From: Bacteroidales bacterium
GTDB taxonomy: Bacteria; Bacteroidota; Bacteroidia; Bacteroidales; JAIOZK01
Length of the DNA stretch: 64,000 bases
Direction: 5' to 3'
Assembly: GCA_021738625.1 (NCBI GenBank)
Contig: JAIPBS010000002.1
Coordinates: 147,225-211,224, forward strand
The translations under genes and the position numbers were made by a program. The notes under the pieces were generated by a model. The model made no database searches. It was not told the DNA's origin and saw only the letters and a list, made by a program, of their open reading frames with translations. Below are positions 1 through 50,597 of the stretch, piece by piece (within the stretch, counting starts at the first letter, position 1; every line of letters starts with the position of its first letter).

Positions 1-345
1 AACCAGATATTCCTGAAACACGGAGAACCTATGTTATTTGGCAAGGGCAAGAAAAAGGGCATCCTTTTGCGAGGCACCCAGCTTGAAGTTGTTGAACTTG
101 GGAAAAATGGCATCACCGAAAAAGACATCCTGGTACACAATATTTACAATCCCGATCCCGGTGTTCACATCATGCTTTCAAGAATGACGCCACCGGCTTT
201 CCCTGCCGCTTTGGGTGTGATCCGTTCGGTTACTGAAAGCTCCTTCGATCAGAACATGGAAGAGGTGATCGAGCAATCCAAACGGGATTCAAAGATCAAA
301 AATGTTGACGATCTGCTTAGAAGCGGGAATACCTGGAAGATTTGA
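1..345 (+). CDS. korB: 2-oxoglutarate/2-oxoacid:ferredoxin oxidoreductase beta subunit, 3' end only
   Basis: The reading frame is open from base 1, so the gene starts outside the window; 114 C-terminal residues are visible. The segment GITEKDILVH, the following stretch on low-abundance aliphatic residues, and the closing VKNVDDLL-type segment (here IKNVDDLLRSGNTWKI) match the C-terminal tail of KorB-type subunits. KorB carries thiamine pyrophosphate and, with KorA, oxidatively decarboxylates 2-oxoglutarate (or a related 2-oxoacid) to the acyl-CoA while reducing ferredoxin in the cytoplasm. The thiamine-binding core lies off the window, so the substrate cannot be judged. The ATG at 31 is an internal methionine and not a start. 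A korA partner would be expected just upstream, outside the window. Confidence 0.85.
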   Translation, partial: NQIFLKHGEPMLFGKGKKKGILLRGTQLEVVELGKNGITEKDILVHNIYNPDPGVHIMLSRMTPPAFPAALGVIRSVTESSFDQNMEEVIEQSKRDSKIKNVDDLLRSGNTWKI

Positions 346-509
346 GGTGGTTTATTGTTTAAGGTTCAAAGTTTAAAGTTCAAGGTTGGTTCAAATTAAA
401 ATTTCTTGAATCTAGATCCCAACCCATATCAAAGGAAACTGGTATTGCCTTTTAGCAACCCAGTACTTAACTTTGAACTTTGAACATGTAACATTGAACA
501 CTGCACAAT
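346..509 (+). repeat. Intergenic imperfect inverted repeats of the 'ttcaaagtttaaagttcaa' kind
   Basis: The gap between korB and tilS carries short direct and inverted repeats: caaagtttaaagttcaagg near 365 and its imperfect complement aacttaactttgaactttg near 467. They can form a long imperfect hairpin. Similar low-complexity repeats recur in other gaps of the window (38.26 kb, 39.3 kb, 39.98 kb). No gene was seen here. Confidence 0.4.
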
Positions 510-1850
510 ATGCTTGACAAATTCAAATCATTTATCCAAGAGGAAAACCAGTTCCGGCCGGATCAGCCAATTTTGCTTGCCGTTAGTTCCGGTATCGATA
601 GCGTGGTTATGGCCCATCTTTTCCGCCGTGCCCGCTTCAGGTTCGGGATTGCTCACTGCAACTTCAGGCTGCGCGGTCGCGCCTCCGATCTGGATGAACT
701 CTTTGCCGAAAACCTGGCTGTGAAACATGATGTACCTTTTCATAAGATCCATTTCAATACGCAATCCTATGCCGAAAGGCACCGTTTATCCATACAAATG
801 GCTGCCAGGGAATTGCGCTACAACTGGCTGGAAAAGATTATTCAGGAGAAAGGCTACTATGCCTTTGCCACTGCCCATCACCTGGACGACCAGATCGAAA
901 CCTTCTTCATTAACTTTTTACGCGGAACCGGTATCAGTGGCTTACGAGGTATTCCCTCCATCAGTGGCAATTGCGTGCGGCCCATCTTATTTGCTTCACG
1001 GAATGATATTGTTACCTATCAGAAACGTTATGGCTTATCTTACAGAGAAGACCAGTCAAATCTTTCAGAAAGATATCAGCGGAATAAGATAAGGCTCAGG
1101 TTACTGCCGGTGCTTGAAGAAATCCAGCAGGATTATCGGGAAGCATTTTTCAGAAATTTTGAAAACCTGAAGGAAGTTGAAAGAATATTCAAACGAGAAG
1201 TACAACTGAAATGCGACAGGCTCACCATTAAAGAAACAGATGGCAGCATCCGGTTTCCGATTGATGCATTGATCAATCTCCATCCTATCAGAGCGTATCT
1301 GCATGAACTATTGCTTCCTTATCATTTCACCAATTCCGACATTCAGGATATTATTGCTTGCCTGGATAATGAATCGGGCAGGCAGTTCTTATCATCAACG
1401 CATCGCCTGCTAAAAGACCGGGATTATCTCATACTCACCAGGCTGGAAAACAATACAGCGGAGCAGGAAATTGAAATCCTTGAAAGTTATGATTTTATCA
1501 GCGGACCGGTGAATATGAAGTTTGAAAAGATCAACATGGCGGATGACCACAAAATTGAACCCGATCAAGATGTAGCCGAACTGGACCTGGATCAGCTCAC
1601 TTTTCCACTTAAGATCAGAAAGTGGAAAAAGGGTGACAGCTTTTGTCCCCTTGGCATGAAAAAGAGCAAGAAGTTAAGCGATTTTTTTGTGGATGAAAAA
1701 CTGTCATTGTTTGAAAAGGAGAATACATGGGTAGTGCTTAGTGATGAAGAGATATGCTGGATCGTTGGCCACAGGATCGCTCATCCTTTCCGCATAACCG
1801 ATAATACCCGCCGTGTGTACCGGATGCAATTTATACATCCTTCTAAATAA
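510..1850 (+). CDS. tilS: tRNA(Ile)-lysidine synthetase
   Basis: TilS attaches lysine to C34 of tRNA-Ile(CAU) using ATP, changing both its codon reading (AUA) and its aminoacylation. The 446-residue protein has an N-terminal PP-loop ATPase domain with the motif SSGIDS at residues 26-31, followed by HCNFRLRG and HHLDDQIET, all diagnostic of the family. The C-terminal third contains the substrate-binding TilS C domain (around LKIRKWKKGDSFCPLGMKKSKKLSDFF). The usual PP-loop is SGGxDS; here the second residue is serine, a mild deviation in an otherwise intact motif. The length is normal for Bacteroidota. The gene stands alone, downstream of korB and upstream of a DsbD-like gene. Confidence 0.95.
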   Translation: MLDKFKSFIQEENQFRPDQPILLAVSSGIDSVVMAHLFRRARFRFGIAHCNFRLRGRASDLDELFAENLAVKHDVPFHKIHFNTQSYAERHRLSIQMAARELRYNWLEKIIQEKGYYAFATAHHLDDQIETFFINFLRGTGISGLRGIPSISGNCVRPILFASRNDIVTYQKRYGLSYREDQSNLSERYQRNKIRLRLLPVLEEIQQDYREAFFRNFENLKEVERIFKREVQLKCDRLTIKETDGSIRFPIDALINLHPIRAYLHELLLPYHFTNSDIQDIIACLDNESGRQFLSSTHRLLKDRDYLILTRLENNTAEQEIEILESYDFISGPVNMKFEKINMADDHKIEPDQDVAELDLDQLTFPLKIRKWKKGDSFCPLGMKKSKKLSDFFVDEKLSLFEKENTWVVLSDEEICWIVGHRIAHPFRITDNTRRVYRMQFIHPSK

Positions 1851-1969
1851 TGGTGGAGATAAACCCCAGGCAACCCTTTTAAAGGACAGGTTGTCATATC
1901 TTTTCAGTTTGGTACTTTTTTGGAAAGAGCATAACAATTATAAAACAATTATCTATTTACATATTTCGT

Positions 1970-1977
1970 TAGGTTTG
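1970..1977 (+). promoter_or_regulatory. Candidate -7 promoter box TAGGTTTG for the DsbD-like gene
   Basis: TAGGTTTG matches the Bacteroidetes -7 consensus TAnnTTTG exactly and lies 19 nt upstream of the ATG at 1997. No convincing -33 box was identified. Confidence 0.4.
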
Positions 1978-1996
1978 CAGTCTATTTTTAATCATT

Positions 1997-4054
1997 ATGA
2001 ATAATATTAATATACTCCTCAGAAAAAGCCGGCTACGAATGTTGCTCACAGCACTGATGCTTAGTGCGGCACTACAGTCCTTTTCACAGATCATCGAACC
2101 CGTTAAATGGGAATTTAAAGCCGAGAAAACCGGCAATCAGGAATATGATCTTGTTTTTAAAGCCGTAATCGAAAACAGGTGGCACCTCTATTCGCAGGAT
2201 ATTCCAATGAGTCCGCCGGCCACTGTTTATTCATTTGAGGAAAATGAAAACTATGAGTTGGTAGGCGGTGTGAAGGAGGTATCCGAAGTTATTGAAGAGT
2301 ACGATCCCAACTTTGAAATGGTTCTGAAGTATTATTCGACTGAGGCCGTTTTTATTCAAAAGATTAAGACTGCAGGCGAAGCTTCCGCCGTGATCCGCGG
2401 ATATGTTGAATACATGTGTTGTGACGACACCCGCTGCTTGCCCCCGACGGAGGAAGATTTTGAATTTGTAATCTCAGCAGACCAGATCACAGCCAGCACA
2501 GAAGTAAGTGAAAAGCCCTCGACGGAAGAAAGCACGGATGGATTTGAACTGGCGAAAGACGTCCAGCCGATTGGCACGGTTACGGAGGAAGAACCCATAA
2601 ACGTAGACACCTGGCAACCCGTGATTGACCAGGTTAAAGATTATGAAGATAAAAAAGGCGACGGCAAAGACACCAAAACATGGTGGTTCATTTTCTTTGC
2701 GGGATTTTTAGGAGGTCTTATCGCATTGCTTACACCATGTGTTTGGCCAATGATCCCCATGACGGTTACCTTCTTTCTGAAACGCTCGAACCACGACAGG
2801 AGCAAAGGAATACGCGATGCGGTTTTGTATGGCATTGCCATCATTATTATCTATGTGACGCTGGGTTTGGGTATCACACTTATCTTTGGCGCCGACGCCC
2901 TGAACGCACTGTCGACGAGCGCATTTTTCAACTTGTTGTTTTTCCTGTTGCTCATTCTTTTTGGAGCGGCTTTCCTGGGTGCTTTTGAGCTTACCCTGCC
3001 TGCCAAATGGACCAATGCTATGGACAGCCGGGCAGATAAAACCAGCGGTTTGTTGAGCATCTTTTTTATGGCTTTTACCCTTGCGCTTGTTTCATTCTCC
3101 TGTACCGGTCCCATCATCGGTACCCTGCTGGTGGAAGCTGCTGTGACGGGTGAACGCATGGGGCCTTTTATGGGTATGTTGGGTTTTTCCCTGGCCCTGG
3201 CCGTTCCGTTTACCATATTTGCCATTTTCCCATCCTGGCTGCAATCCATGCCGAAATCGGGTGGATGGCTCAATTCCGTTAAGGTTGTATTGGGTTTCCT
3301 GGAAATCGCACTCGCGCTGAAGTTCCTTTCTGTTGCCGACCTGGCTTATCATTGGGGCATACTCGACAGGGAGGTTTTCCTGGTGCTTTGGATTGTTTTG
3401 TTCACTTTGCTGGGATTCTATCTGCTGGGCAAGCTCAAGTTTGCACACGACAGTGATCTGCCCTTCATCTCGGTGCCGCGAATGTTCCTGGCAACCATTT
3501 CGCTTGCCTTTGCCATGTATATGGTCCCGGGTTTGTGGGGTGCGCCTTTGAAGGCCATCAGCGCTTTTGCCCCGCCACTTACAACCCAGGATTTCAATCT
3601 TTATGAAGATGAAGTGCATGCCGAATTTGATGATTATGACGACGGCATGGCTTATGCCCGACAGGTGAATAAACCCGTGATCGTCGATTTTACGGGTTGG
3701 GGTTGCGTGAATTGCCGGAAGATGGAGAACTCGGTATGGATCGATCCGAGGGTTAAGGATTACCTCGAAAATGAATATGTGTTGATTTCACTGTATGTTG
3801 ATGATAAAACCGATCTGCAGCCATCCGAGGAGATGAAGGTGGTTGAAAGGGGAGATGAGAAGGAACTGACCACGGTGGGTAAAAAGTGGAGCTACCTGCA
3901 ACGTTACAAATTCGGAAAGAATAGCCAGCCGTTTTATGTGATCCTCGATCATGAAGGTAATCTGCTGAATACACCACGCGCATTTAATACCAATGTGGAA
4001 GCTTATGTAAGATGGTTGAGGAATGGGCTGGAGGCCTTTAGAAATAAACAATAA
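1997..4054 (+). CDS. DsbD-like protein-disulfide reductase (thiol:disulfide interchange protein)
   Basis: A 685-residue inner-membrane protein with the three-part architecture of DsbD. The N-terminal signal/TM is followed by a periplasmic DsbD-alpha-like domain with a cysteine cluster (YMCCDDTRC near residue 150). Next comes a polytopic membrane core of the cytochrome c biogenesis (DsbD-beta) family, with its two reactive cysteine motifs LLTPCVWPMIP (near 245) and SFSCTGPI. A C-terminal thioredoxin-like domain has the redox motif CVNC at 570-573. It is expected to carry electrons from cytoplasmic thioredoxin to periplasmic disulfide substrates. The C-terminal domain reads FTGWGCVNCRKME, as is usual in Bacteroidota. 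No redox partner gene is adjacent. The symbol dsbD is reasonable but the periplasmic substrates are unknown. Confidence 0.9.
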   Translation: MNNINILLRKSRLRMLLTALMLSAALQSFSQIIEPVKWEFKAEKTGNQEYDLVFKAVIENRWHLYSQDIPMSPPATVYSFEENENYELVGGVKEVSEVIEEYDPNFEMVLKYYSTEAVFIQKIKTAGEASAVIRGYVEYMCCDDTRCLPPTEEDFEFVISADQITASTEVSEKPSTEESTDGFELAKDVQPIGTVTEEEPINVDTWQPVIDQVKDYEDKKGDGKDTKTWWFIFFAGFLGGLIALLTPCVWPMIPMTVTFFLKRSNHDRSKGIRDAVLYGIAIIIIYVTLGLGITLIFGADALNALSTSAFFNLLFFLLLILFGAAFLGAFELTLPAKWTNAMDSRADKTSGLLSIFFMAFTLALVSFSCTGPIIGTLLVEAAVTGERMGPFMGMLGFSLALAVPFTIFAIFPSWLQSMPKSGGWLNSVKVVLGFLEIALALKFLSVADLAYHWGILDREVFLVLWIVLFTLLGFYLLGKLKFAHDSDLPFISVPRMFLATISLAFAMYMVPGLWGAPLKAISAFAPPLTTQDFNLYEDEVHAEFDDYDDGMAYARQVNKPVIVDFTGWGCVNCRKMENSVWIDPRVKDYLENEYVLISLYVDDKTDLQPSEEMKVVERGDEKELTTVGKKWSYLQRYKFGKNSQPFYVILDHEGNLLNTPRAFNTNVEAYVRWLRNGLEAFRNKQ

Positions 4055-4164
4055 ATGAGTTTTATTCAATCCGGCTTGATGATATGCTGAATTTTCGGTA
4101 TGCTGTTTTTTCATATGGATATATGTAGAAATATTTATATATTAGCCCCCAAAAAATTGGAATT

Positions 4165-5895
4165 ATGAAACACTTATACATATCCTTGTTCGCAGTCTTG
4201 TTTGCCTTTATAACAACCAAAGCGGGGGCACAGTCTTTCTCGGTCATCAATACTTCCCTCGAAAATGTGGCATACAGCGAAGCCAGCTGGGGAGATATTG
4301 ACGGTGATTGCGATCTGGATGTGGTGCTCACCGGTGTGAATACCAATGATGAGATCGTTACAAAAATCTTTGAGAATATTGACGGAAGCTTTGCGGAGAT
4401 TCCGCTTGAATTGCCGGCCGTGGAAAACGGTTCCGCCAAATTCGGTGATTACGATCAGGATGGAGACCAGGATATTTTGATCACCGGTCTTGGGCAGCAA
4501 GGGCCAGCCGCATACATTCTTGAAAACCTGGGAAACAACAACTTTGTTGATGCTGAAGCCGGCCTTCCGGGCGTTGAGAATGGGAAATCCGCATGGGGCG
4601 ATTATGATAACGATGGCGACCTGGATGTGTTGTTAACCGGAAACTGGGACACATTTATCTATCGAAATGATGATGGTATATTTGTTGACATAGGCGAAGA
4701 CTTCGGTTATTTTAACAGCAGTTGCGCTGCCTGGGGCGATTGCGACAATGATGGCGACCTCGACCTTCTGCTCAGCGGCGACAGCGGAGCCGGACCGGTT
4801 AGCAAATTATTCAGGAACGATGAGGGAGACTTCTTCGAAACCGATATTCCACTTTACGGCACCATGGCCGGTGTTTCGGGATTCGTAGATTTTGACAACG
4901 ACACGGATATGGATATCTATGTCAGTGGTTTCAACTCTGCACTGGAACCTGTTTTGCGTTTGTTTATCAATGATGGTGAAGGCGGTTTTACACAGGATAC
5001 CTATTATCTGAGCGGCGCTTCTTTAACCGGCCTCGACTGGGGAGACTTTGACAACGATGGCGATCAGGACATGGTGATCGTTGGGAAAGGCGCCGGATGC
5101 GGTTTGTATATCGGAAGAATTTACAGAAATGATGGTGATTTCTTTACGGATATCGGAGCCGGTATCAACTCATTTACCCGTGGCTCGGCAAACTGGGGCG
5201 ATTATGATAACGACGGCGACCTCGACCTGCTGCTGACCGGCTACGAAAACGATGCCTCACCACGAACAAAGCTATACCAGAACAGCCTGGGCAGCAATAC
5301 TTATTCATTGAATACACCGCCCACTGTGCCATCGGGTCTTACCGCCCTTCAGGATGGGGACGATGTGGAACTGAGCTGGGATCCCTCCGAAGACGAGCAA
5401 ACTTTTGCTTTTGGGTTATCATATAATCTTATGATCGGGACCGAGCCTGATATGATGGACATTCAAACCGCTATGGCGGACCCCGAAACAGGCGTCAGAC
5501 AGATTGCAGAAACCGGCAATGCCGGACAAAACAACTCCTGGCTGGTGAAAAACCTGGTGCCCGGCACCTATTACTGGAAAGTGCAGGCGATCGACCATTC
5601 CTATTGCGGTTCCGATTTTTCGGAAAGCGGCGAGTTCACCCTGGTGGCTACTGGCATTGATGAATTTGGCAATACCTTCCCCGAACTTGTTTTTGTGAAT
5701 GATGAAAACAAGTTGATCGTAAACGTGCAGACTTCTGCTGAAAAATTCATCCGCATTATCGACATTAACGGAAGGGAAGTGAAACGAATTGAAAGCGACG
5801 GCATGCATTACCTGAGCGACCTTCAGAAAGGTGTTTATGTTGTTGTGTATGGTTCTGAGGATAGCCAGCTTGCTGAGAAAATTATCGTTGAGTAA
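4165..5895 (+). CDS. Secreted FG-GAP/VCBS-repeat protein with T9SS type A sorting domain
   Basis: A 576-residue secreted protein. It has an N-terminal signal peptide (MKHLYISLFAVLFAFITTKAGA) and about seven FG-GAP/VCBS repeats between residues 25 and 375, each with a calcium-binding-type loop such as WGDYDNDGDLDLLLTG. A fibronectin type III-like segment follows (about 385-490, including SYNLMIGTEPDM and YYWKVQAID). A C-terminal Por secretion domain (about 500-576, ending LQKGVYVVVYGSEDSQLAEKIIVE) directs export and surface anchoring by the type IX secretion system. The repeats probably form a beta-propeller. Similar proteins are adhesins or cell-surface binding modules; the ligand is not predictable from sequence. 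No neighbour suggests a pathway. Confidence 0.85.
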   Translation: MKHLYISLFAVLFAFITTKAGAQSFSVINTSLENVAYSEASWGDIDGDCDLDVVLTGVNTNDEIVTKIFENIDGSFAEIPLELPAVENGSAKFGDYDQDGDQDILITGLGQQGPAAYILENLGNNNFVDAEAGLPGVENGKSAWGDYDNDGDLDVLLTGNWDTFIYRNDDGIFVDIGEDFGYFNSSCAAWGDCDNDGDLDLLLSGDSGAGPVSKLFRNDEGDFFETDIPLYGTMAGVSGFVDFDNDTDMDIYVSGFNSALEPVLRLFINDGEGGFTQDTYYLSGASLTGLDWGDFDNDGDQDMVIVGKGAGCGLYIGRIYRNDGDFFTDIGAGINSFTRGSANWGDYDNDGDLDLLLTGYENDASPRTKLYQNSLGSNTYSLNTPPTVPSGLTALQDGDDVELSWDPSEDEQTFAFGLSYNLMIGTEPDMMDIQTAMADPETGVRQIAETGNAGQNNSWLVKNLVPGTYYWKVQAIDHSYCGSDFSESGEFTLVATGIDEFGNTFPELVFVNDENKLIVNVQTSAEKFIRIIDINGREVKRIESDGMHYLSDLQKGVYVVVYGSEDSQLAEKIIVE

Positions 5896-6050
5896 TCCCG
5901 GTAAGGATTAAATGTGAATAGCGCCGCATGCAATGCGGTGTAAATGAGGCAACACAAGCTGTAACCCCGGAAGGGGTTGAATCCCCTAGCAAACCCTGTT
6001 CCAAACCGGTATAATAAATAAATTCTTACCTTTATCCCAAAACCAAAACC
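5896..6050 (+). repeat. Short intergenic palindromes (gcaatgcggtg / aaccccggaaggggttgaa)
   Basis: The gap contains the palindrome gccgcatgcaatgcggt around 5920-5938 and aaccccggaaggggtt around 5963-5978. Both are self-complementary and typical of dispersed Bacteroidota intergenic repeats; the second could act as a terminator for the upstream gene although no T-run follows. Confidence 0.35.
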
Positions 6051-43434: not shown

Positions 43435-43603
43435 TTCGAAATATCATAAAACATGTCACATATTTTATGTGCCATGTTTTATGAGTTATGTTAAACGCCA
43501 AGAGGTTTCGACCGTCATTGTTTCGCTGATGTTCAACAATGGTGGGACAACATGCTTAAAAACAAAACCAGCAAGAGTACTTTAAACAAAGGACGGTGCA
43601 AAA
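43435..43603. other. Gap after the LytTR regulator with a partial repeat fragment
   Basis: No gene. 43505-43555 contains a degraded left part of the multi-hairpin repeat (cattgtttcgctgatgttc pairs with aacaatg), preceding the first full copy at 43604. Confidence 0.4.
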
Positions 43604-43827
43604 CGCTCAGGGATTCCCTGCCCGTCCGGCAGGCGGGCTCCCTTCATTGTTTCGCTAAAGCTCAACAATGGCGGTCGGAATGACATTGATCTTTGAGTAT
43701 AGGGAGAGGCAGGCAGGACGCGCGGAGCGCGTCCTGCCTGCCTCTCCCACCCCTTTTAATAAGACACCTGTCATTCCGACGAATCCTTTTTGCATCAGCA
43801 AAAAGGGTGAGGAGGAATCTCTTAGCG
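43604..43827 (+). repeat. Multi-hairpin repeat family B, copy 1 (224 bp)
   Basis: Outer stem cgctcagggattcc / ggaatctcttagcg closes the element. Inside: left hairpin CATTGTT (43645-43651)/AACAATG (43664-43670) with loop TCGCTaaaGCTC; an 11-bp stem TCGGAATGACA (43675)/TGTCATTCCGA (43769); a central perfect 22-bp GC palindrome at 43702-43748 with loop gga; right hairpin CCTTTTTGC (43785)/GCAAAAAGG (43798). The first half also carries cccgtccggcaggcggg. Confidence 0.85.
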
Positions 43828-43871
43828 AAATGCATTCCCACAGTAAAAGTTTTTATAACTGGTCTGCTAAT

Positions 43872-44094
43872 CGCCAGGAGATTCCTCCTTCCACAGCCTC
43901 GCTGCGCTCGGCTGTTTCAGTTGGAATGACATTCTGTTTGTTGTTTGGGGAGGTTGAGTTGGGAGGCGCGCGAAGCGCGCCTCCCAGAACCCCTCTTACT
44001 TTTTAACAGCATCTGTCATTCCGAAACCTCTCACTTTCAACTGTTTGATAAGAATCATTAAAGGTAGCATGAGAGGTTGAGGAATCTCATGGCG
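43872..44094 (+). repeat. Multi-hairpin repeat family B, copy 2 (223 bp), just upstream of the DGR target
   Basis: Same layout as copy 1 with different stem sequences: left hairpin ACAGCC (43893)/GGCTGT (43910), loop TCGCTgcGCTC; inner stem TTGGAATGACA/TGTCATTCCGA with one G-T wobble; central 12-bp perfect palindrome TGGGAGGCGCGC (43960)/GCGCGCCTCCCA (43975), loop gaa; right hairpin AACCTCTCA (44025)/TGAGAGGTT (44070). Ends 194 bp upstream of the lipoprotein start. Confidence 0.85.
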
Positions 44095-44288
44095 CTTTGC
44101 ACTGCATTTATATAAAAGGTTTTTGCATAGGAATTGCGAAACGTCAGGAGACTCCCTGTTTCAACACTTCATACACCACCACACCCATTCATACTTGCTG
44201 CATTACATTTCATACATTTCCCGGGTTTTGCCTTCCACAGTGCAGTTTCTTTGAATATTTTTATGCATTAAACCAAAAACAAGATCTT

Positions 44289-46862
44289 ATGAAAACCCGG
44301 CATTATTATCTTTTCGCAACAGCATTATTTCTAGCAATTACAAGTGTTTTATTATGGGGATGTAAAAAAGATGATGACCCAGATCCCGACCCAAACAACC
44401 AGGACCCTCCCACATACACCGACGGACAAGGTGAAATAGGAAACATAGGAGGTACGGTGATGATAGACGATCCGACTTCGCCAATTGATGGTGCTAAGAT
44501 TGTTATCCCAGAAGGTGCTCTAAATGAAAATGAAAACATTAAAATTACCACGGCTCCTGATTACATAAAAGTGCCGGGTGATACATCAGCTCTACTGATT
44601 AAATTTGAACCTGAAGGCCTGCTTTTTAATGAGCCGGTTGAGATATCAATACCTAATAGTTATAATAATAATAATGTTAGTGCATTTTATTATAACCCTG
44701 ATTCTTTGATAATTAGTCAGATACCAATAATACAGAGAACATCCGGTTTAATAACCGCAACAACCAATCATTTTAGTTATTATTATGTTTCAGATAATGG
44801 ATTTACTGTGGGAATGGAAATGTTGAACATAGAAGGGAAAATTGGATTCAGAATAAATGATATGGGTTTTAATGGCGACCCTGGCCTTGATAAAATTCCT
44901 TCCAGTAAAAACAATTATGCAAATGCTTTTGAAGCTTTGATCAATGCCGATGAAGTAAATTCAATTTTTCAGGTTTCACTTTATAAAGACGGATACTTTT
45001 GGAATAGTCGTGTTGCTACGGCAAATATAGTTCTTGGAAGATACTCAAACGATTATGATTATAAAGCTTTGGTTTACAAAAACAATGATTTAAAATACAC
45101 AAGCGATTTTCTTGGTTCAGAACCAAACGGATTAATCAATACATGGTTTTCCGGCGAACCTTTGATTTTCTACTTTGAGGACTATGTCCCCGATCAGGAT
45201 GATAGTTATTATGTAAAACTTAAGTGGCGGTTAATAAAAGATTTGAATATTAATCATTGGACTAAGGGATATACATCACTTTATGAAGTTCACAACGAAG
45301 ATGATGATCAAAAAATAACAGAAATGGGTGTTTTTCCCATCAATGATGTTTATGAAACATGCCTGGATGAATCTTATATAAGTGGTACAGGAACAAAACC
45401 TGCTGTTGCAACCTATGAAGCCACAAATATATATTGTGACGGAGCACAGTTTAATGGCGAAATTATTAATGAAGGGGATGCTGAAGTGACACAATATGGC
45501 TTTTGTTGGTCAAAGTCTTCAGACCCTGATATCAATGACGAACATTGTAACTTTGTCGATCCGGGTGGATTAATTGAATTTGATTATGACTATTACGGTT
45601 ACATGGAGCCCAATCATTATTATTATGTAAGGGCCTATGCAAAAAACAGTCATGGAATAAGTTATGGACAAAATATTGAATTTGCTACGGAACAGGATGA
45701 ACAGGAGCCTGAAGTCAGAGGCCACGATCCTTTAAATGGTGAAACCATAAATGGAACTGTTGATATTTATCTAAGTGTTGATGATGACTGTATGATGGAC
45801 AAAGCAACCTTTGAAGTTTCCGACGGTGGTTCTTATCAGTTATTGGGTGAAGATGATGAACCCGTTCTTGCAACCTGGTATGAATTTGAATTGGAATGGA
45901 ATACAGAATTATTTGATGATGGCAATTATACAATTAGAACAATTGCATACGATGCCTCAGGCAAATCAACCACTTATACCTGGGATGTAGTTGTTGATAA
46001 CAATGGCGGCTCCAACACCCCCCCCACAGCAGCCTTCTCAGTTAACCCCTCCTCCGGCTCAACTTCCACAACTTTTGAATTTGACGGCTCAGATAGCTAC
46101 GACAACGAAGACCCCACAAGCCAATTGCAAGTGCGCTGGGACTTTGACGGAGACGGCAGTTGGGATACCGGCTGGGATTATGACAAAACCGAAAACCACC
46201 AATACAGTGACGAAGGAACATACACAGCAAAAATGGAGGTAAAGGATACCGAAGGCTTAACAGATTATACAACACACTCTGTAACGGTTAACAACGGTGG
46301 CGGCGGCAACGGCTGCGATGGCCAGACCAGCTTAACATACGGCGGTCAAACCTACGATCTTGTTGAAATTGGTGACCAGTGCTGGATGGCCGAAAACCTC
46401 AATTATGAAACCGGCAATAGCTGGTGCTATGATAACAATTCTTCCAATTGTGATACCTACGGCAGGTTGTATGATTGGTCAACTGCACTGGGCGCTTGTC
46501 CCTCGGGATGGCATTTGCCGAGTGATGATGAGTGGTGTACTTTAACTACTTACATTGACCCTACAGTGGATTGTGATGAGGTAGGATGGAGCGGAACCGA
46601 TGCAGGATACAAAATGAAAAGCACAAGTGGCTGGTACTCAAACGGAAACGGCTCTGACGCATACGGCTTCGCGGCCCTTCCGGGCGGCGGCCGTAGCAGC
46701 GATGGTGGTTTCAGCTACGTAGAGGAGGGCGCCTACTTTTGGTCCTCTACTGAGGATGGGACGGATGCCTGGGGCCGGCTCCTAAACTATAACGACGATG
46801 AAGTAGGCCGTTACTACAGCAATCAGGAGAACGGTTTTTCAGTTCGTTGCTTGAAGGATTAG
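44289..46862 (+). CDS. DGR target: lipoprotein with ZU5-like, FnIII/Ig, PKD and C-terminal FISUMP (variable) domains
   Basis: The start at 44289 gives a lipoprotein signal (MKTRHYYLFATALFLAI..., lipobox LWGC, C25) followed by an acidic linker; the in-frame ATG at 44097 lies inside a repeat and is rejected. The 857-residue protein has a ZU5-like domain (about 50-150, VIPEGALNENENIKIT, KFEPEGLLF), FnIII-like (about 350-470, FCWSKSSDPD, NHYYYVRAYAKN), an Ig-like module (about 475-570), a PKD domain (about 577-670, RWDFDGDGSWDTGWDYD) and a FISUMP domain (about 675-857, WMAENLNYETGN, GFAALPGG, NGFSVRCLKD). VR covers residues 793-857. Surface-anchored, it should present the diversified FISUMP face to the outside. 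The ligand is unknown. Confidence 0.92.
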   Translation: MKTRHYYLFATALFLAITSVLLWGCKKDDDPDPDPNNQDPPTYTDGQGEIGNIGGTVMIDDPTSPIDGAKIVIPEGALNENENIKITTAPDYIKVPGDTSALLIKFEPEGLLFNEPVEISIPNSYNNNNVSAFYYNPDSLIISQIPIIQRTSGLITATTNHFSYYYVSDNGFTVGMEMLNIEGKIGFRINDMGFNGDPGLDKIPSSKNNYANAFEALINADEVNSIFQVSLYKDGYFWNSRVATANIVLGRYSNDYDYKALVYKNNDLKYTSDFLGSEPNGLINTWFSGEPLIFYFEDYVPDQDDSYYVKLKWRLIKDLNINHWTKGYTSLYEVHNEDDDQKITEMGVFPINDVYETCLDESYISGTGTKPAVATYEATNIYCDGAQFNGEIINEGDAEVTQYGFCWSKSSDPDINDEHCNFVDPGGLIEFDYDYYGYMEPNHYYYVRAYAKNSHGISYGQNIEFATEQDEQEPEVRGHDPLNGETINGTVDIYLSVDDDCMMDKATFEVSDGGSYQLLGEDDEPVLATWYEFELEWNTELFDDGNYTIRTIAYDASGKSTTYTWDVVVDNNGGSNTPPTAAFSVNPSSGSTSTTFEFDGSDSYDNEDPTSQLQVRWDFDGDGSWDTGWDYDKTENHQYSDEGTYTAKMEVKDTEGLTDYTTHSVTVNNGGGGNGCDGQTSLTYGGQTYDLVEIGDQCWMAENLNYETGNSWCYDNNSSNCDTYGRLYDWSTALGACPSGWHLPSDDEWCTLTTYIDPTVDCDEVGWSGTDAGYKMKSTSGWYSNGNGSDAYGFAALPGGGRSSDGGFSYVEEGAYFWSSTEDGTDAWGRLLNYNDDEVGRYYSNQENGFSVRCLKD
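46666..46859 (+). repeat. DGR variable repeat (VR), 194 bp, 3' end of the target gene
   Basis: Aligns without gaps to TR (offset 741 bp) from gcttcgcggcccttcc to the last sense codon. Of 69 adenines in TR, 31 differ here (25 A to G, 5 A to T, 1 A to C); none of the 125 non-adenine positions differ. 21 codons change the residue (801, 803-805, 807, 809-811, 813, 814, 816, 823, 826, 829, 831, 836, 840, 842-844, 857) and four are silent. Identity is perfect from 46830 to 46856, the likely initiation-of-homology tract; the last A-G difference at 46857 sits at its edge. Confidence 0.95.
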
Positions 46863-46887
46863 AAATTTGATATTTGAAATTTAACAC

Positions 46888-46905
46888 ATCCGCCGGTAGG
46901 CGGAT
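46888..46905 (+). promoter_or_regulatory. Hairpin with GGTA tetraloop downstream of VR (DGR cruciform-like site)
   Basis: ATCCGCC GGTA GGCGGAT: a perfect 7-bp stem with a 4-nt loop, 28 nt after the VR end. DGRs such as the BPP-1 phage system use a short stem with a 4-nt GRNA loop just past VR for target recognition; GGTA fits GRNA. The position and form match; function here is inferred. Confidence 0.65.
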
Positions 46906-46923
46906 CGAAAAATTTTATAAGAT

Positions 46924-47265
46924 TTGGCTACGTATGATCAATTGCCGGTATACAAAGTTTGTTATGATTTGCTGATAATGACTTTTTACCTGGTGAATCA
47001 TTTTAAGCGAGAGTATAAATACACGCTTGGCGAACGCATCAAATCAGAGATACTGAACACATTGATCAATATTTATTGGGCAAACACGCATAAAGAGAAA
47101 AATGAAGCACTGACAAAGGCCAGGAATCATCTGGAGCTTGTCAGGCTTTATTACAGGATAGTAAAAGATTTAAAACAGATTAATTTGGAAAAGTTTGTTG
47201 AGGCAAATGAGAAGATTGAGAATGTTTCAAAACAATTGTTTGCCTGGCAAAAATCATTTGAATAA
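46924..47265 (+). CDS. avd: Avd-like DGR accessory variability determinant (four-helix bundle protein)
   Basis: A 113-residue all-helical, basic protein (LPVYKVCYDLLIMTFYLVNH, KSEILNTLINIYWANTHKEKNEAL, EKIENVSKQLFAWQ) of the four-helix-bundle/bAvd family, located between VR and TR as in characterised DGRs. In BPP-1, Avd is a homopentamer that binds the reverse transcriptase and RNA and is essential for diversification. The only usable start is TTG at 46924; the in-frame stop TAA at 46918-46920 excludes an upstream ATG, and an ATG at 46933 is out of frame. There is no good Shine-Dalgarno. The same fold is also seen in 23S rRNA intervening-sequence proteins, so context decides the call. Confidence 0.85.
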   Translation: MATYDQLPVYKVCYDLLIMTFYLVNHFKREYKYTLGERIKSEILNTLINIYWANTHKEKNEALTKARNHLELVRLYYRIVKDLKQINLEKFVEANEKIENVSKQLFAWQKSFE

Positions 47266-47406
47266 ACTGTAAGGCCGGAGTTACCTTTTGTTAAGGCAGA
47301 GGTAAGGGTGCCGTTCTAATCCAATAACCTCCATCTGCAGTGCAGGTGGTAAATAATTCGTGTAATCTGAAAATGAATGCAGGAAGTGTAAATGGTTATT
47401 TATTAT
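47266..47406 (+). other. Leader between avd and TR
   Basis: 141 bp without a gene. 47360-47395 (aaaatgaatgcaggaagtg) shows faint similarity to the target upstream of VR (aaaatgaaaagcacaagtgg at 46613), suggesting TR arose by copying a slightly longer piece of the target gene. Confidence 0.45.
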
Positions 47407-47600
47407 GCTTCGCGGCCCTTCCGGGCGGCAACCGTAACAACAATGGTAATTTCAACAACATAGAGAAGAACGCCAACTTTTGGTCCTCTACTGAAAATGG
47501 AACAAATGCCTGGAACCGGAACCTAAACTATAACAACGATGAAGTAAACCGTAACAACAACAATCAGGAAAACGGTTTTTCAGTTCGTTGCTTGAAGAAT
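47407..47600 (+). repeat. DGR template repeat (TR), 194 bp
   Basis: Near-copy of VR with adenine-rich codons (17 AAC or AAT codons at varied positions). It keeps the reading frame of the FISUMP end but is not translated as a gene here (the surrounding 47340-47633 frame has no start context and stops soon after). Only two codons (AAG at the positions of residues 813 and 856) could become stop codons by a single A to T change, so most mutagenised products stay full length. Confidence 0.95.
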
Positions 47601-47617
47601 TGGAAACAGTTTATAAT

Positions 47618-47646
47618 AAGACCTGCCGTTTAAGATGGCAGGTCTT
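47618..47646 (+). terminator. Hairpin after TR (AAGACCTGCC / GGCAGGTCTT), terminator or structural element
   Basis: A perfect 10-bp stem (47618-47627 with 47637-47646) with a 9-nt loop, followed by tgttcttt. It may end the TR transcript or mark the 3' end of the template RNA; it begins 18 nt after TR. Confidence 0.6.
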
Positions 47647-47691
47647 TGTTCTTTGAAAAATGAATGAACAATGCTTTAAGCAGGTGCAATT

Positions 47692-47915
47692 AGCCATGAG
47701 ATTCCTCCCTTCATTGTTTCGCTATCGCTCAACAATTGCGGTCGGAATGACATTGATCTTTGAGTATAGGGAGAGGAGCTGGCAGGCGCGCCCCGCGCGC
47801 CTGCCAGCTCCTCCTCTTCTTCCAAAAACGCCTTGTCATTCCGAAACCTCCCGTTATACAAACCTATGATCAATGTGTTACATCTGGCATAGGGAGGTTG
47901 AGGAATCTCCAGGCG
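47692..47915 (+). repeat. Multi-hairpin repeat family B, copy 3 (224 bp), between TR and RT
   Basis: Left hairpin ATTGTT (47713)/AACAAT (47731) with loop TCGCTatcGCTC; inner stem TCGGAATGACA (47742)/TGTCATTCCGA (47834); central 18-bp perfect GC palindrome 47774-47812 (loop ccc); right hairpin AACCTCCC (47845)/GGGAGGTT (47892). Same architecture as copies 1, 2 and 4, with different stem sequences. Confidence 0.85.
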
Positions 47916-47951
47916 TAATACAACTTATTTACAAATTGTCAAATACAAAAC

Positions 47952-49118
47952 ATGCAACTAAACCTTTTCAATGAAACCAACAACAAAAAGCTTCTCCTCG
48001 ACTTGTTTCAAGCCTATTATGATGCCCGAAGAAACAAACGCAATACCATCAACGCCCTGAATTTCGAGATCAATTATGAAGAAAATTTATTCAGGTTGAA
48101 TGAGGAAATAACCACAGGAATCTATAAGATAAAACCCAGCATTTGTTTTATCAATTTCAGTCCGGTGCAAAGAGAAATATTTGCAGCCGATTTTCGCGAC
48201 AGGGTAATACACCACCTGGTTTACAACTATATTGCCCCTATTTTCGAAAAGACTTTCATTAACGACAGCTACAGTTGCCGCGTAGGAAAAGGCACACATT
48301 ACGGAATTAAAAGAGTGGATCATTTTATCCGTTCCTGTTCTGAAAATTATCATCAGGATTGCTACATACTTAAACTGGACATTAAAGGCTACTTCATGTC
48401 AATTGACAGGAATTTATTGTTCCAATTTGTAAAAGAGACCCTGCTCAGGTTTGCCGGCAAAACCGATTTCGATCTGCCTTTAATCATGGACCTGATCAAA
48501 CAAATTATTTTTAATGATCCAACCAAAAACTACATCCTGAAAGGAAATAAAAGAGACTGGGAAGGATTACCACCATCAAAAAGTCTTTTCCATTCGGGAG
48601 AAAACAAAGGTCTGCCCATAGGAAACCTTACCTCTCAATTATTCAGCAATGTTTACCTGAATTCATTTGATCATTTTGTAAAGAAAGAATTAAAGATCAG
48701 GTACTATGGCCGCTACGTTGATGATTTTGTAATTGTACACAAAGACAGGAATTACCTGCGTGCAATTGTTCCAAAGATTTCGGAATACCTTCAGGATAAA
48801 TTGCACATGCAATTGCATCCAAAAAAGATTTATCTGCAACATTATACCAAAGGTGTGCAGTTTCTGGGTGCAATAATAAAACCTTACCGGATTTATATTT
48901 CAAGCCGCACCAAAGGAAACTTTTATAAAGCGGTCTTCAAGTGGAACAACTTCATAGAAAACAGAAATGACATGAGCAGGGAAGAAAAACAGGAATTTGT
49001 TAGCACCATGAATTCTTATTTGGGAATTGCAAAGCACTATAAAACCTATAATCTCAGAAAGCACCTGCTCTTTAAAAAGCTTGATCAGAAGTTTTGGGAG
49101 TGTTTTGAAGTTACATAA
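47952..49118 (+). CDS. DGR reverse transcriptase
   Basis: A 388-residue reverse transcriptase with the DGR subtype motifs: CRVGKGTHYGIKRVDHFIR, LKLDIKGYFMSIDRNLL (catalytic D), GLPIGNLTSQLFSN at 220-233 with the DGR-type IGxxxSQ (group II and retron RTs have QGxxxSP) and the active site RYVDDFVIV (D257, D258). Motifs 5 to 7 (HPKKIYLQHYTKGVQFLGAII) follow. It copies TR RNA into adenine-mutagenised cDNA that replaces VR, with Avd. No endonuclease or maturase X domain is present. B-family repeats lie just upstream and just downstream. Confidence 0.93.
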   Translation: MQLNLFNETNNKKLLLDLFQAYYDARRNKRNTINALNFEINYEENLFRLNEEITTGIYKIKPSICFINFSPVQREIFAADFRDRVIHHLVYNYIAPIFEKTFINDSYSCRVGKGTHYGIKRVDHFIRSCSENYHQDCYILKLDIKGYFMSIDRNLLFQFVKETLLRFAGKTDFDLPLIMDLIKQIIFNDPTKNYILKGNKRDWEGLPPSKSLFHSGENKGLPIGNLTSQLFSNVYLNSFDHFVKKELKIRYYGRYVDDFVIVHKDRNYLRAIVPKISEYLQDKLHMQLHPKKIYLQHYTKGVQFLGAIIKPYRIYISSRTKGNFYKAVFKWNNFIENRNDMSREEKQEFVSTMNSYLGIAKHYKTYNLRKHLLFKKLDQKFWECFEVT

Positions 49119-49135
49119 ATGGGTTGCCACACGCT

Positions 49136-49556
49136 AAGAGTTTCCCTGTCCGTCCGGCAGGCGGGCTCCTTTCACAGCCTCGCCTTGCTCGGCTGTTCCG
49201 GTCGGAATGACATTCTGTTTGTTGTTAGGGGAGAGGAATACCAACGGTTCATTGAATTTCATAATTTATTGAAGAAGGATTAAAAACGGTTAAAACCGTT
49301 TTTGGAAATAATGCGTTGTTTCCAACCCCACGGATAAATCCGTGGGCTGATATTATGTTGGTTGTAAAGGTTTTAAAAATATCAGCCCGCAGCTTTAGCT
49401 GTGGGTCATAAAAAGCCAACACCTTCATTATAAACGGTTTTAACCGTTTTACATTAGAATGTTAATTTGCAAATAAAGAATCTTTGATAAGAACCATAAA
49501 AGGTAGCCGTGAGAGGTTGAGCCCGCCTGCCGGACGGGCAGGGAATCTTTTGCGAG
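49136..49556 (+). repeat. Split copy of multi-hairpin repeat family B downstream of RT
   Basis: Left half at 49136-49215 (hairpin ACAGCC 49174/GGCTGT 49191; TCGGAATGACA 49202) and right half at about 49484-49556 (agaaccataaaaggtagccgtgagaggttg and ggaatct). The middle TGTCATTCCGA is missing; instead 49230-49480 contains unrelated palindromes (accgttttt, cccacggataaatccgtggg, ccgcagctttagctgtggg). Confidence 0.6.
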
Positions 49557-49624
49557 ATGCAACTACTTTTCTATCATATTAACCTGTCAACCAACGATCA
49601 TCAATCTTCAGGCAAGGTCGATAG

Positions 49625-49684
49625 TAAAAAATGTAAAGAGCCCGCCTGCCGGACAGGCAGGGAATCTCCTGCCGTTTGGTAGCT
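49625..49684 (+). repeat. Repeat fragment upstream of the first GIY-YIG gene
   Basis: Contains gagcccgcctgccggacagg and ggaatctcctgccgtttggt, matching the right ends of B-family repeats; the GTTTGGTAGCTCATAAAT tail directly precedes both GIY-YIG copies (49674, 50249). Confidence 0.5.
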
Positions 49685-49720
49685 CATAAATTAAAGGGGA
49701 TTTTTAATTAACTTTATTCC

Positions 49721-50023
49721 ATGCATAACAACCATACCTATTACGTCTACATCATGACCAATAGAAACAGAAAAGTACTTTATGTTGGTGTCACCAATTC
49801 GCTGGGTCGAAGGGTTTATGAACATGAAAAGGGAATGATAAAAGGTTTTACCAAAAAGTATAACTGTCATTACTTGGTTTACTACGAGCTTTTCAATGAT
49901 ATTGACCTGGCCATAAACCGTGAAAAACAAATTAAAAAATGGGGGCGGGAGAAAAAGGATGCACTTATTAAAAGCAAGAATCCGGGCTTATTAATTCTGA
50001 ATGAAAAAGTAAGATTTTGGTGA
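49721..50023 (+). CDS. GIY-YIG nuclease family small protein, copy 1
   Basis: A 100-residue protein made only of a GIY-YIG domain: YYVYIMTNRNRKVLYVG (GIY and YIG-like YVG), RRVYEHEKGMIKG, and the catalytic glutamate region INREKQIKKW. Such single-domain proteins (UvrC/Endo-related) are common in Bacteroidota; function is unknown. This copy and the one at 50295 are a tandem duplication, with about 85% DNA identity, separated by a B-family repeat. Confidence 0.85.
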   Translation: MHNNHTYYVYIMTNRNRKVLYVGVTNSLGRRVYEHEKGMIKGFTKKYNCHYLVYYELFNDIDLAINREKQIKKWGREKKDALIKSKNPGLLILNEKVRFW

Positions 50024-50044
50024 TTTAATAGAAGTACTGCATAA

Positions 50045-50248
50045 CGCCCAGGGATTCCTCCCTACGGCCTTTCGCTGTCGCTCAAGGCCTGCGGTCGGAA
50101 TGACATCCTTTCTATTCATTGGGGAGGGTGTTCTGGGAGGCGCGCTCCGCGCGCCTCCCAGAACACCCTCTTGTCCTCCCAAAGCGCGCTGTCATTCCGA
50201 CGATCATTTTTTACAATAGGAAAAAATGTGAGGAGGAATCTCTTAGCG
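50045..50248 (+). repeat. Multi-hairpin repeat family B, copy 4 (204 bp), between the GIY-YIG copies
   Basis: Left hairpin GGCCTT (50066)/AAGGCC (50084), loop TCGCTgtcGCTC; inner stem TCGGAATGACA (50095)/TGTCATTCCGA (50190); central perfect 22-bp palindrome 50124-50170 (loop tcc); right hairpin CATTTTTT (50205)/AAAAAATG (50221); outer stem cgcccagggattcctcc / ggaggaatctcttagcg. Confidence 0.85.
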
Positions 50249-50294
50249 TTTGGTAGCTCATAAATAAAATAGTATTTTTAATTAACTTTATTCC

Positions 50295-50597
50295 ATGCAA
50301 AACAACCATACCTATTACGTCTACATCATGACCAACAGAAACAGAAAAGTACTTTATGTTGGTATCACCAATTCATTAGGTCGCAGGGTCTATGAACATG
50401 AAAAAGGCATGATAAAAGGTTTTACCAAAAAGTACAATTGTCATTACCTGGTTTACTACGAGCTTTTCAATGATATTGACCTGGCCATAAATCGGGAAAA
50501 GCAAATTAAAAAATGGAGACGGGATAAAAAGGATGCGCTTATTAGAAGCAAGAATGCCACCTTTGAGTCATTGAACGATAAAGTAAGGTTTTGGTGA
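50295..50597 (+). CDS. GIY-YIG nuclease family small protein, copy 2
   Basis: A 100-residue paralogue of the GIY-YIG protein at 49721 with the same motifs (YYVYIMTNRNRKVLYVG, INREKQIKKW) and a divergent last 15 residues. The 574-bp period (start to start) includes GTTTGGTAGCTCATAAAT, the gene and a B-family repeat, so the whole module was duplicated. Confidence 0.85.
   Translation: MQNNHTYYVYIMTNRNRKVLYVGITNSLGRRVYEHEKGMIKGFTKKYNCHYLVYYELFNDIDLAINREKQIKKWRRDKKDALIRSKNATFESLNDKVRFW

Follow-up and report, generated by a model that had tools for sequence, protein, structure and literature searches.

We analyzed a 64,000-nucleotide stretch of contig JAIPBS010000002.1 (hereafter, the window) from a Bacteroidales bacterium (assembly GCA_021738625.1). 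Positions 44289 to 49118 on its forward (+) strand hold a complete diversity-generating retroelement (DGR). In order, the cassette consists of a target gene that includes a variable repeat (VR), a DNA hairpin, the accessory gene avd, a structured leader, a template repeat (TR), a second hairpin, a dispersed repeat, and a reverse transcriptase (RT) gene. An earlier annotation made from the letters alone (the original prediction) had already called a complete DGR, with the target, VR, a hairpin with a GGTA loop, an Avd-like gene, TR, and RT on one strand; all of these were found, in the order given. The leader, the hairpin after the TR, the dispersed repeat in the gap between TR and RT, and three remote VR-like copies were absent from that account. 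The features of the cassette are the following.

44289 to 46862, + strand: DGR target gene, ATG to stop, encoding a predicted lipoprotein of 857 amino acids (open reading frame, Pfam, TIGR02145)
46344 to 46859, + strand: FISUMP domain with a C-type-lectin-like fold, residues 686 to 857 of the target
46666 to 46865, + strand: VR, from its alignment with the TR, with the initiation of mutagenic homing (IMH) sequence at its 3' end (around 46840 to 46865)
46888 to 46905, + strand: post-VR DNA hairpin with a 7-bp stem and a GGTA loop, which fits GRNA
46924 to 47265, + strand: accessory gene avd, TTG start (PF22296, phrog_3206)
47274 to 47406, + strand: conserved structured leader of 133 bases before the TR, related to RT-7 (RF03028 match, model R1, covariation)
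47282 to 47288 with 47298 to 47304, + strand: leader helix P1
47323 to 47329 with 47394 to 47400, + strand: leader long-range helix P2
47407 to 47606, + strand: TR, from its repetition in the VR, with IMH* at its 3' end
47618 to 47646, + strand: terminator-like hairpin directly 3' of the TR, with a 13-bp stem and a T-rich tail
47690 to 47918, + strand: dispersed palindromic repeat resembling repetitive extragenic palindromes (REP-like), between the TR hairpin and the RT gene (matches elsewhere in the genome)
47952 to 49118, + strand: DGR RT of 388 amino acids with IGNLTSQ and YVDD motifs (match to bRT, tree)

The TR and VR align without gaps at an offset of 741 and are 84% identical. The VR differs from the TR at 31 of 72 adenines and at 1 of 128 other positions (Fisher's exact test, P = 2.4e-15). 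Changes at non-adenines as frequent as those at adenines, which the original prediction had named as evidence against a DGR, were thus not seen in this one VR, a comparison that covers no population. The share of mismatches that fall on TR adenines (31 of 32) is above the threshold of at least 75% given for DGRs in PMC8144416. An adenine pattern described as perfect therefore held for all differences except one, a stop-codon base at the extreme 3' end of the VR, where the TR reads TGG and the VR reads TAG. The 3' end reads GGATTAG in the three remote copies and in a copy from a genus relative, while the TR has GAATTGG. Because all VR-like copies share this two-base difference from the TR, it looks like the usual difference between IMH and IMH* and not like mutagenesis. 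The TR contains 23 AAY codons, from which no stop can be reached by changing an A, and 19 of them are changed in the VR; two other TR codons (AAG) could become stops. A-to-G changes strongly predominate in the cis VR (25 G, 5 T, and 1 C), and the substitutions pooled over 57 relatives (first repeat pair of each) are 563 G, 410 T, and 181 C.

The proteins of the cassette agree with this assignment. The best match of the RT in the PDB was bRT of phage BPP-1 (8ub7, 4.9e-37), and its PHROG match was "Reverse transcriptase" (4e-98). It carries YVDD and an IGNLTSQ-type motif, the latter of which we take to be a mark of DGR RTs. As relatives, we used the best 80 of 564 RTs confirmed in genome contigs, some of which are near-identical (e.g., L089/L092, L084/L085, and L056/L066). 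Adenine-biased repeat pairs, defined as at least 50 bases with at least five mismatches and at least 70% of mismatches at adenines of one copy, were present in 57 of the 80. A tree was built from 58 of these 80 loci (63 were tried, and 5 did not pass the length filter) together with 15 of 80 viral loci. In this tree, a branch with 100/100 support separated the DGR RTs from 13 of the 14 rows used as outgroup, which were retron-like and group II RTs and included one protein twice. The window's RT sat among the DGR RTs, not with retrons or group II introns. This was the phylogenetic check suggested at the outset, and the calls of intact RT motifs and a full-length target also stood, since the RT, Avd, and target frames are all open. 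PADLOC matches to generic, Cas1-linked, or DRT/UG types and NCBIfam matches to group II, retron, or Drt types, the NCBIfam ones all below cut-off, were set aside given the better bRT match and the DGR placement. The remaining row of the outgroup, L221 (G018:C140), fetched by a group II profile, fell beside BPP-1 among the DGR rows on a long branch; its motifs are IGNLTSQ and YMDD. Avd matched bAvd (PF22296, 1e-12, above the Pfam cut-off) and phrog_3206, "Avd protein of DGR" (4.4e-20), as well as NF033474 at 50.8 bits, under its cut-off of 80; a sequence search of solved structures gave no convincing match for it.

The target is a predicted surface lipoprotein whose signal ends ..LLWGC-KKDDD (lipobox read by eye). 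It has a PKD domain (Pfam) and ends in a FISUMP (Fib_succ_major) domain recognized by PF09603 (1.2e-34, 120.7 bits versus a cut-off of 33.9) and TIGR02145 (5.3e-51). The best solved-structure match of this domain was the DGR target TvpA, and a search of solved structures by sequence returned no match for the domain. The VR falls within the C-type-lectin-like fold. Pfam, TIGR02145, and the TvpA match thus bear out what had been proposed for the target, a lipoprotein ending in FISUMP with that fold. Following the VR by 22 bases is the hairpin with the 7-bp stem. In phage DGRs, for which the rule is stated, such hairpins have stems of 7 to 10 bp and a GRNA loop 4 to 34 bases after the VR (PMC3240598); the window's hairpin agrees in loop, GC-rich stem, and distance. 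Its 6-bp core, TCCGCC-N4-GGCGGA, occurs at three places in the genome, and only in the window is the loop GGTA. Among 58 cassettes (the window and the 57 relatives with repeat pairs), the hairpin after the TR scored at least 6 above the mean of single-base shuffles in 35, and the hairpin after the VR exceeded the same crude score in 24. Post-TR hairpins differ in sequence between many loci, and many post-VR hairpins of the lineage consist of a short ACCGC-GNA-GCGGT stem, after which come CGA and T.

A search with the TR in the bacterium's own genome (94.7% complete, 82 contigs) returned three long matches beyond the TR itself and the cis VR, every one inside a FISUMP gene. Of the 19 FISUMP matches in this genome, from which the TR's own frame is excluded, 4 have a VR. 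Relative to the TR, and with gaps scored as changes, the copy on contig C74 is changed at 37 of 72 adenines and 8 of 128 other positions (P = 4.8e-13), that on C15 at 30 of 69 and 17 of 126 (P = 4.6e-6), and that on C81 at 36 of 69 and 15 of 132 (P = 7.2e-10; Fisher's exact test in each case). The assembly contained one DGR RT and one TR, the other RT match being a group II intron RT. By eye, the T-rich tract 3' of the VR is kept in the C74 and C15 copies. The C15 copy has an imperfect post-VR hairpin with a GGCA loop and a 4-bp stem, C74 has none, and C81 has neither hairpin nor T-rich tract. Near the VR 5' end, GGTTGGCGC is common to all three remote copies, and the TR differs there. We read the remote copies as likely targets that homed from this TR or from an earlier version of it and are now drifting. 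Three copies thus show the adenine excess expected of further targets made from the same TR, yet they carry 8 to 17 other differences. A perfect match to the TR at non-adenines was the test for trans targets in PMC10907252; the imperfect match here means that an older TR could have made the remote copies.

It is possible, though we think it doubtful, that the remote copies are ordinary duplicates of the cis FISUMP domain that were never rewritten in place. Their similarity to the cis gene does begin upstream of the VR, by about 160 bases for C74 and C81 and about 100 for C15, and non-adenine differences are what such duplicates would have. However, when five VRs were compared in all 10 pairs, they differed at 34 to 47 of 71 to 72 A sites versus 7 to 25 of 128 others. 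Drift gives no such pattern, and an ancestor rewritten before duplication would have left the copies alike at A sites.

Locus L223 (G000:C15:70000-81500) is a tandem of four FISUMP genes, only one of which has a VR. At L225 3049-3092 (G000:C8), another FISUMP gene has a match to the TR/VR core in which 8 of 14 adenines and 2 of 28 remaining positions are changed; at 42 to 45 bases, it is too short to name a VR. The genus relative G001 has one VR-like FISUMP end (L226, G001:C47:103700-103901), changed at 34 of 71 A and 12 of 131 other positions. No RT match was found in G001 at E 1e-40, nor any match to retron or group II profiles, which do match the window's RT.

REP-like palindromic repeats flank the cassette and recur near remote VRs, the distance from repeat end to VR being roughly 1.5 kb for C74 and 0.2 kb for C81. 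In the window they occupy 43500 to 44120, 47690 to 47918, and 49119 to 50300, and elsewhere L222 1326-2603 and L224 1337-2024. A GIY-YIG gene lies among them at 49721 to 50023 (Pfam, 1.8e-15), with near-copies at 50295 to 50597 and at L222 1805-2104. These repeats with their GIY-YIG genes may have helped to move target genes. The one at 47690 to 47918 has 20 matches in the genome, counting itself and inverted self-matches; mir-like Rfam matches inside it were taken as chance. Ten other proteins of the window belonged to housekeeping, envelope, or outer-membrane families or had no match at E up to 1e-10.

From sequence alone, we infer that the DGR is or recently was active. We consider it unlikely that it is instead inactive or decaying, with a VR made in the past and RT expression now blocked by the repeat between TR and RT. 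What speaks for such decay is the repeat itself and the length of the gap it occupies, 345 bases in the window versus 12 to 105 between TR and RT match in 20 of the 23 relatives whose spacing was read. Likewise, no variant strain was found among the best 120 of 5,323 protein matches to the target, in which the protein itself stood at 100% and the next best at 58%, with no near-copy. Yet the three reading frames are open and the TR hairpin is present, gaps of 254 to 589 bases also occur in the remaining 3 of 23 relatives, and the cis VR has no non-adenine change except one 3'-end base, where remote copies have 8 to 17.

The leader is the less familiar part of this otherwise known kind of system, and it matters more than the DGR itself, which is one more well-formed case of a FISUMP target, possibly with targets in trans. 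Between the avd stop and the TR lie 141 bases, and the leader within them matched the full model of Rfam RT-7 (RF03028) at E 1.4e-8 and 43.7 bits, below the gathering score of 116.8. The Rfam entry says only "RT-7 RNA" and sRNA; its source paper is reportedly Weinberg 2017. When RF03028 was searched in 99 genomes, the bacterium's own included, there were five matches, all adjoining DGR RTs and all below the gathering score; we therefore treat them as relatives of the family and not as filed members. When 20 of the 80 DGR loci were searched with Rfam at gathering level, no RT-7 match appeared. We aligned 14 leaders, the window's among them (alignment A2), for which RNAalifold folded 32 pairs, 22 of them changed on both sides; removal of one isolated pair gave the model R1. 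The window leader, as one of the 14 seeds, scored 85.6 bits. Its P2 is AATAACC/GGTTATT, the commonest seed form being GGTAACC/GGTTACT. An unconstrained fold of the window's RNA from leader to hairpin formed P1, P2, and the post-TR hairpin.

Searched against the window and the 80 loci, R1 gave 83 matches at E up to 1. Among the 82 outside the window, 81 were on the RT's strand and 73 preceded the RT match by no more than 1.6 kb. A match upstream of the RT was found in 60 of the 80 loci, 51 of these being non-seed loci, some of them close to seed loci. Cultured relatives with leader matches include Parabacteroides chinchillae DSM 29073 (L118), Bacteroides reticulotermitis (L090), and Odoribacter lunatus (L097). 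Many weaker matches span mainly P1 and stand 40 to 140 bases before the TR. Of 38 matches of at least 31 bits with a known TR, 29 end no more than 10 bases from the TR start (20 of 29 once the 9 seed loci are set aside), and 7 of the 9 misses belong to loci with at least two leader matches (L118, L119, L090, L121, and L122). Loci L118, L119, L122, L083, and L090 contain two to five matches each. At L118, all three TRs found directly follow a leader of their own, as do two of three at L122. Multi-leader loci with at least three matches are L118 3448-4673, L119 3633-4850, and L122 3839-4640 (Parabacteroides) and L083 1529-3605 (Prevotella); we read L118 and L122 as arrays of template units, and no TR was found in L083. 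In an alignment of the 83 matches fitted to the model (A4), 95.2% of cells were paired, versus 33.6 to 49.9% with the partner strand slid and 64.1% after shuffling. Both sides had changed in 30 of 31 pairs. Since the fit favors the structure, we take this covariation as support and not as a clean test.

Most new matches of the model also lay beside DGR RTs in whole-genome searches that made no use of protein. With an E cut-off of 0.1, R1 had nine matches across 99 genomes: five seeds, three new ones beside DGR RTs, and a weak partial one (L237) that was not. A scan of 395 genomes from the phylum with an E cut-off of 0.01 returned seven, namely the window and six new ones, all six followed by DGR RT sequence, which after the L240 and L245 matches consists of short open pieces only. 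Nine of the 10 new whole-genome matches thus adjoin a DGR RT. These scans applied full scoring to the best 29 (99 genomes) or best 7 (395 genomes) first-look candidates per genome, so absence of R1 from a genome is weak evidence. Six of the 99 genomes have a DGR RT, and five of these have an R1 match. There was no match at E up to 1 in 18 retron-like or group II loci (including the DGR-like L221) and five FISUMP stretches. On viral contigs (57 of 80 fetched loci), 12 loci had a match at E < 0.01, two of them misplaced (L138 on the other strand and L124 downstream of the RT); viral loci L126 to L128 look near-identical.

We read the leader as the predicted 5' domain of the template RNA, one that likely guides template copying. 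It seems quite improbable that the leader instead serves the RT gene as a cis-regulatory element or promoter region. In 73 of 82 matches it precedes the RT and shares its strand, which, like the filing of RT-7 as a free-standing sRNA, would suit such a role, but its end meets the TR start in most strong matches while the distance to the RT varies, and all three TRs of L118 and two of the three of L122 follow leaders of their own.

Taking these results together, we hold with considerable confidence that the locus is a complete DGR that likely rewrites adenines in the lectin-like end of its target, that likely did so in three further FISUMP genes, and whose template RNA is predicted to carry a folded leader. 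Several observations weigh against this reading. The RT-7 match falls under the Rfam gathering score, R1 has no match upstream of the RT in 20 of the 80 relatives, nor at one DGR locus of G013 or at that of G048, and pair counts in A4 are inflated by its fitting to the model structure. Furthermore, pairing of the leader with the TR 5' end, the TR 3' end, or the post-TR stretch was not cognate specific when cognate and swapped partners were compared in 26 cassettes (Wilcoxon P = 0.26, 0.92, and 0.42, respectively). The remote copies are imperfect at non-adenines, and the repeat in the gap between TR and RT could lower RT expression.

Under the DGR reading, one transcript would run from the leader (47274) through the TR to the hairpin at 47618 to 47646. 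A complex of RT and Avd may recognize the leader, the post-TR hairpin, or both, and the RT would then copy the TR with errors opposite A. Synthesis of cDNA would halt at P2, whose 3' strand ends six bases before the TR, and the cDNA would replace the VR, guided by the IMH and the DNA hairpin with the GGTA loop. The cis target would be in current or recent use, whereas the remote targets, with post-VR hairpins impaired or absent, would for that reason be drifting. By analogy with BPP-1, we propose that the leader is a platform for RT and Avd and that P2 is a stop mark for cDNA. We lean somewhat toward a broader version, in which RT-7 and related elements form the 5' domain of template RNAs in DGRs. 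In a large lineage of cellular DGRs, each TR would then have a covarying leader of its own that loads RT-Avd and stops cDNA at the TR edge, reversing the BPP-1 plan. That lineage would span Bacteroidota, Patescibacteria, Cloacimonadota, Omnitrophota, Pseudomonadota, and others. This would suggest a role for an orphan Rfam family. In the literature searched, we found no link between RT-7 and DGRs, although an earlier one is possible; structure terms were absent from a text search of PMC6642488, and one of PMC8867640 turned up no mention of a conserved leader.

Parts of this system have close counterparts. A Fib_succ_major/FISUMP lipoprotein as DGR target is already published: DGRs from human metagenomes share a lipoprotein target ending in Fib_succ_major, with nine Fib_succ_major proteins (PMC4159848), and the text examined from that paper does not contain remote copies with this domain or RNA elements. 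Our literature search found papers on DGRs under Fib_succ_major and none under the name FISUMP. In Treponema denticola, whose DGR target is TvpA, a single TR serves numerous targets, among which are several lipoproteins, and the accessory gene has the TR on one side and the RT on the other (PMC4891356); here it precedes the TR, and the targets are FISUMP proteins. Trans targets are likewise published for Thiohalocapsa PB-PSB1, which resembles the present case in its remote targets and in repeats around its DGR loci, but where trans targets were judged by a perfect non-adenine match to the TR, which the remote copies here do not have (PMC10907252). A metagenome survey of DGRs would, by its own account, miss remote targets (PMC8144416).

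BPP-1 has a similar layout, with the same order of target, avd, TR, and RT, an IMH, a hairpin with a GRNA loop, and a homologous RT (PMC3240598). In BPP-1, the TR begins directly at the avd stop (3020/3021) and is separated from brt by 144 bases, whereas here avd and TR are 141 bases apart. A spacer 3' of the BPP-1 TR is structured and recruits RT-Avd; the cDNA is primed by one of its bases and stopped by a motif in the 3' end of avd (PMC12875486). In contrast, the conserved structured element of the window lies 5' of the TR, and the window also has a 3' hairpin; the BPP-1 stretch 1 to 6000 is without an R1 element (best 4.9 bits, filters off). What is known of template copying comes mostly from BPP-1, where the template RNA has a different organization, and a conserved, covarying element fixed to the TR start offers a concrete way to approach how the template is chosen and bounded in many cellular DGRs.

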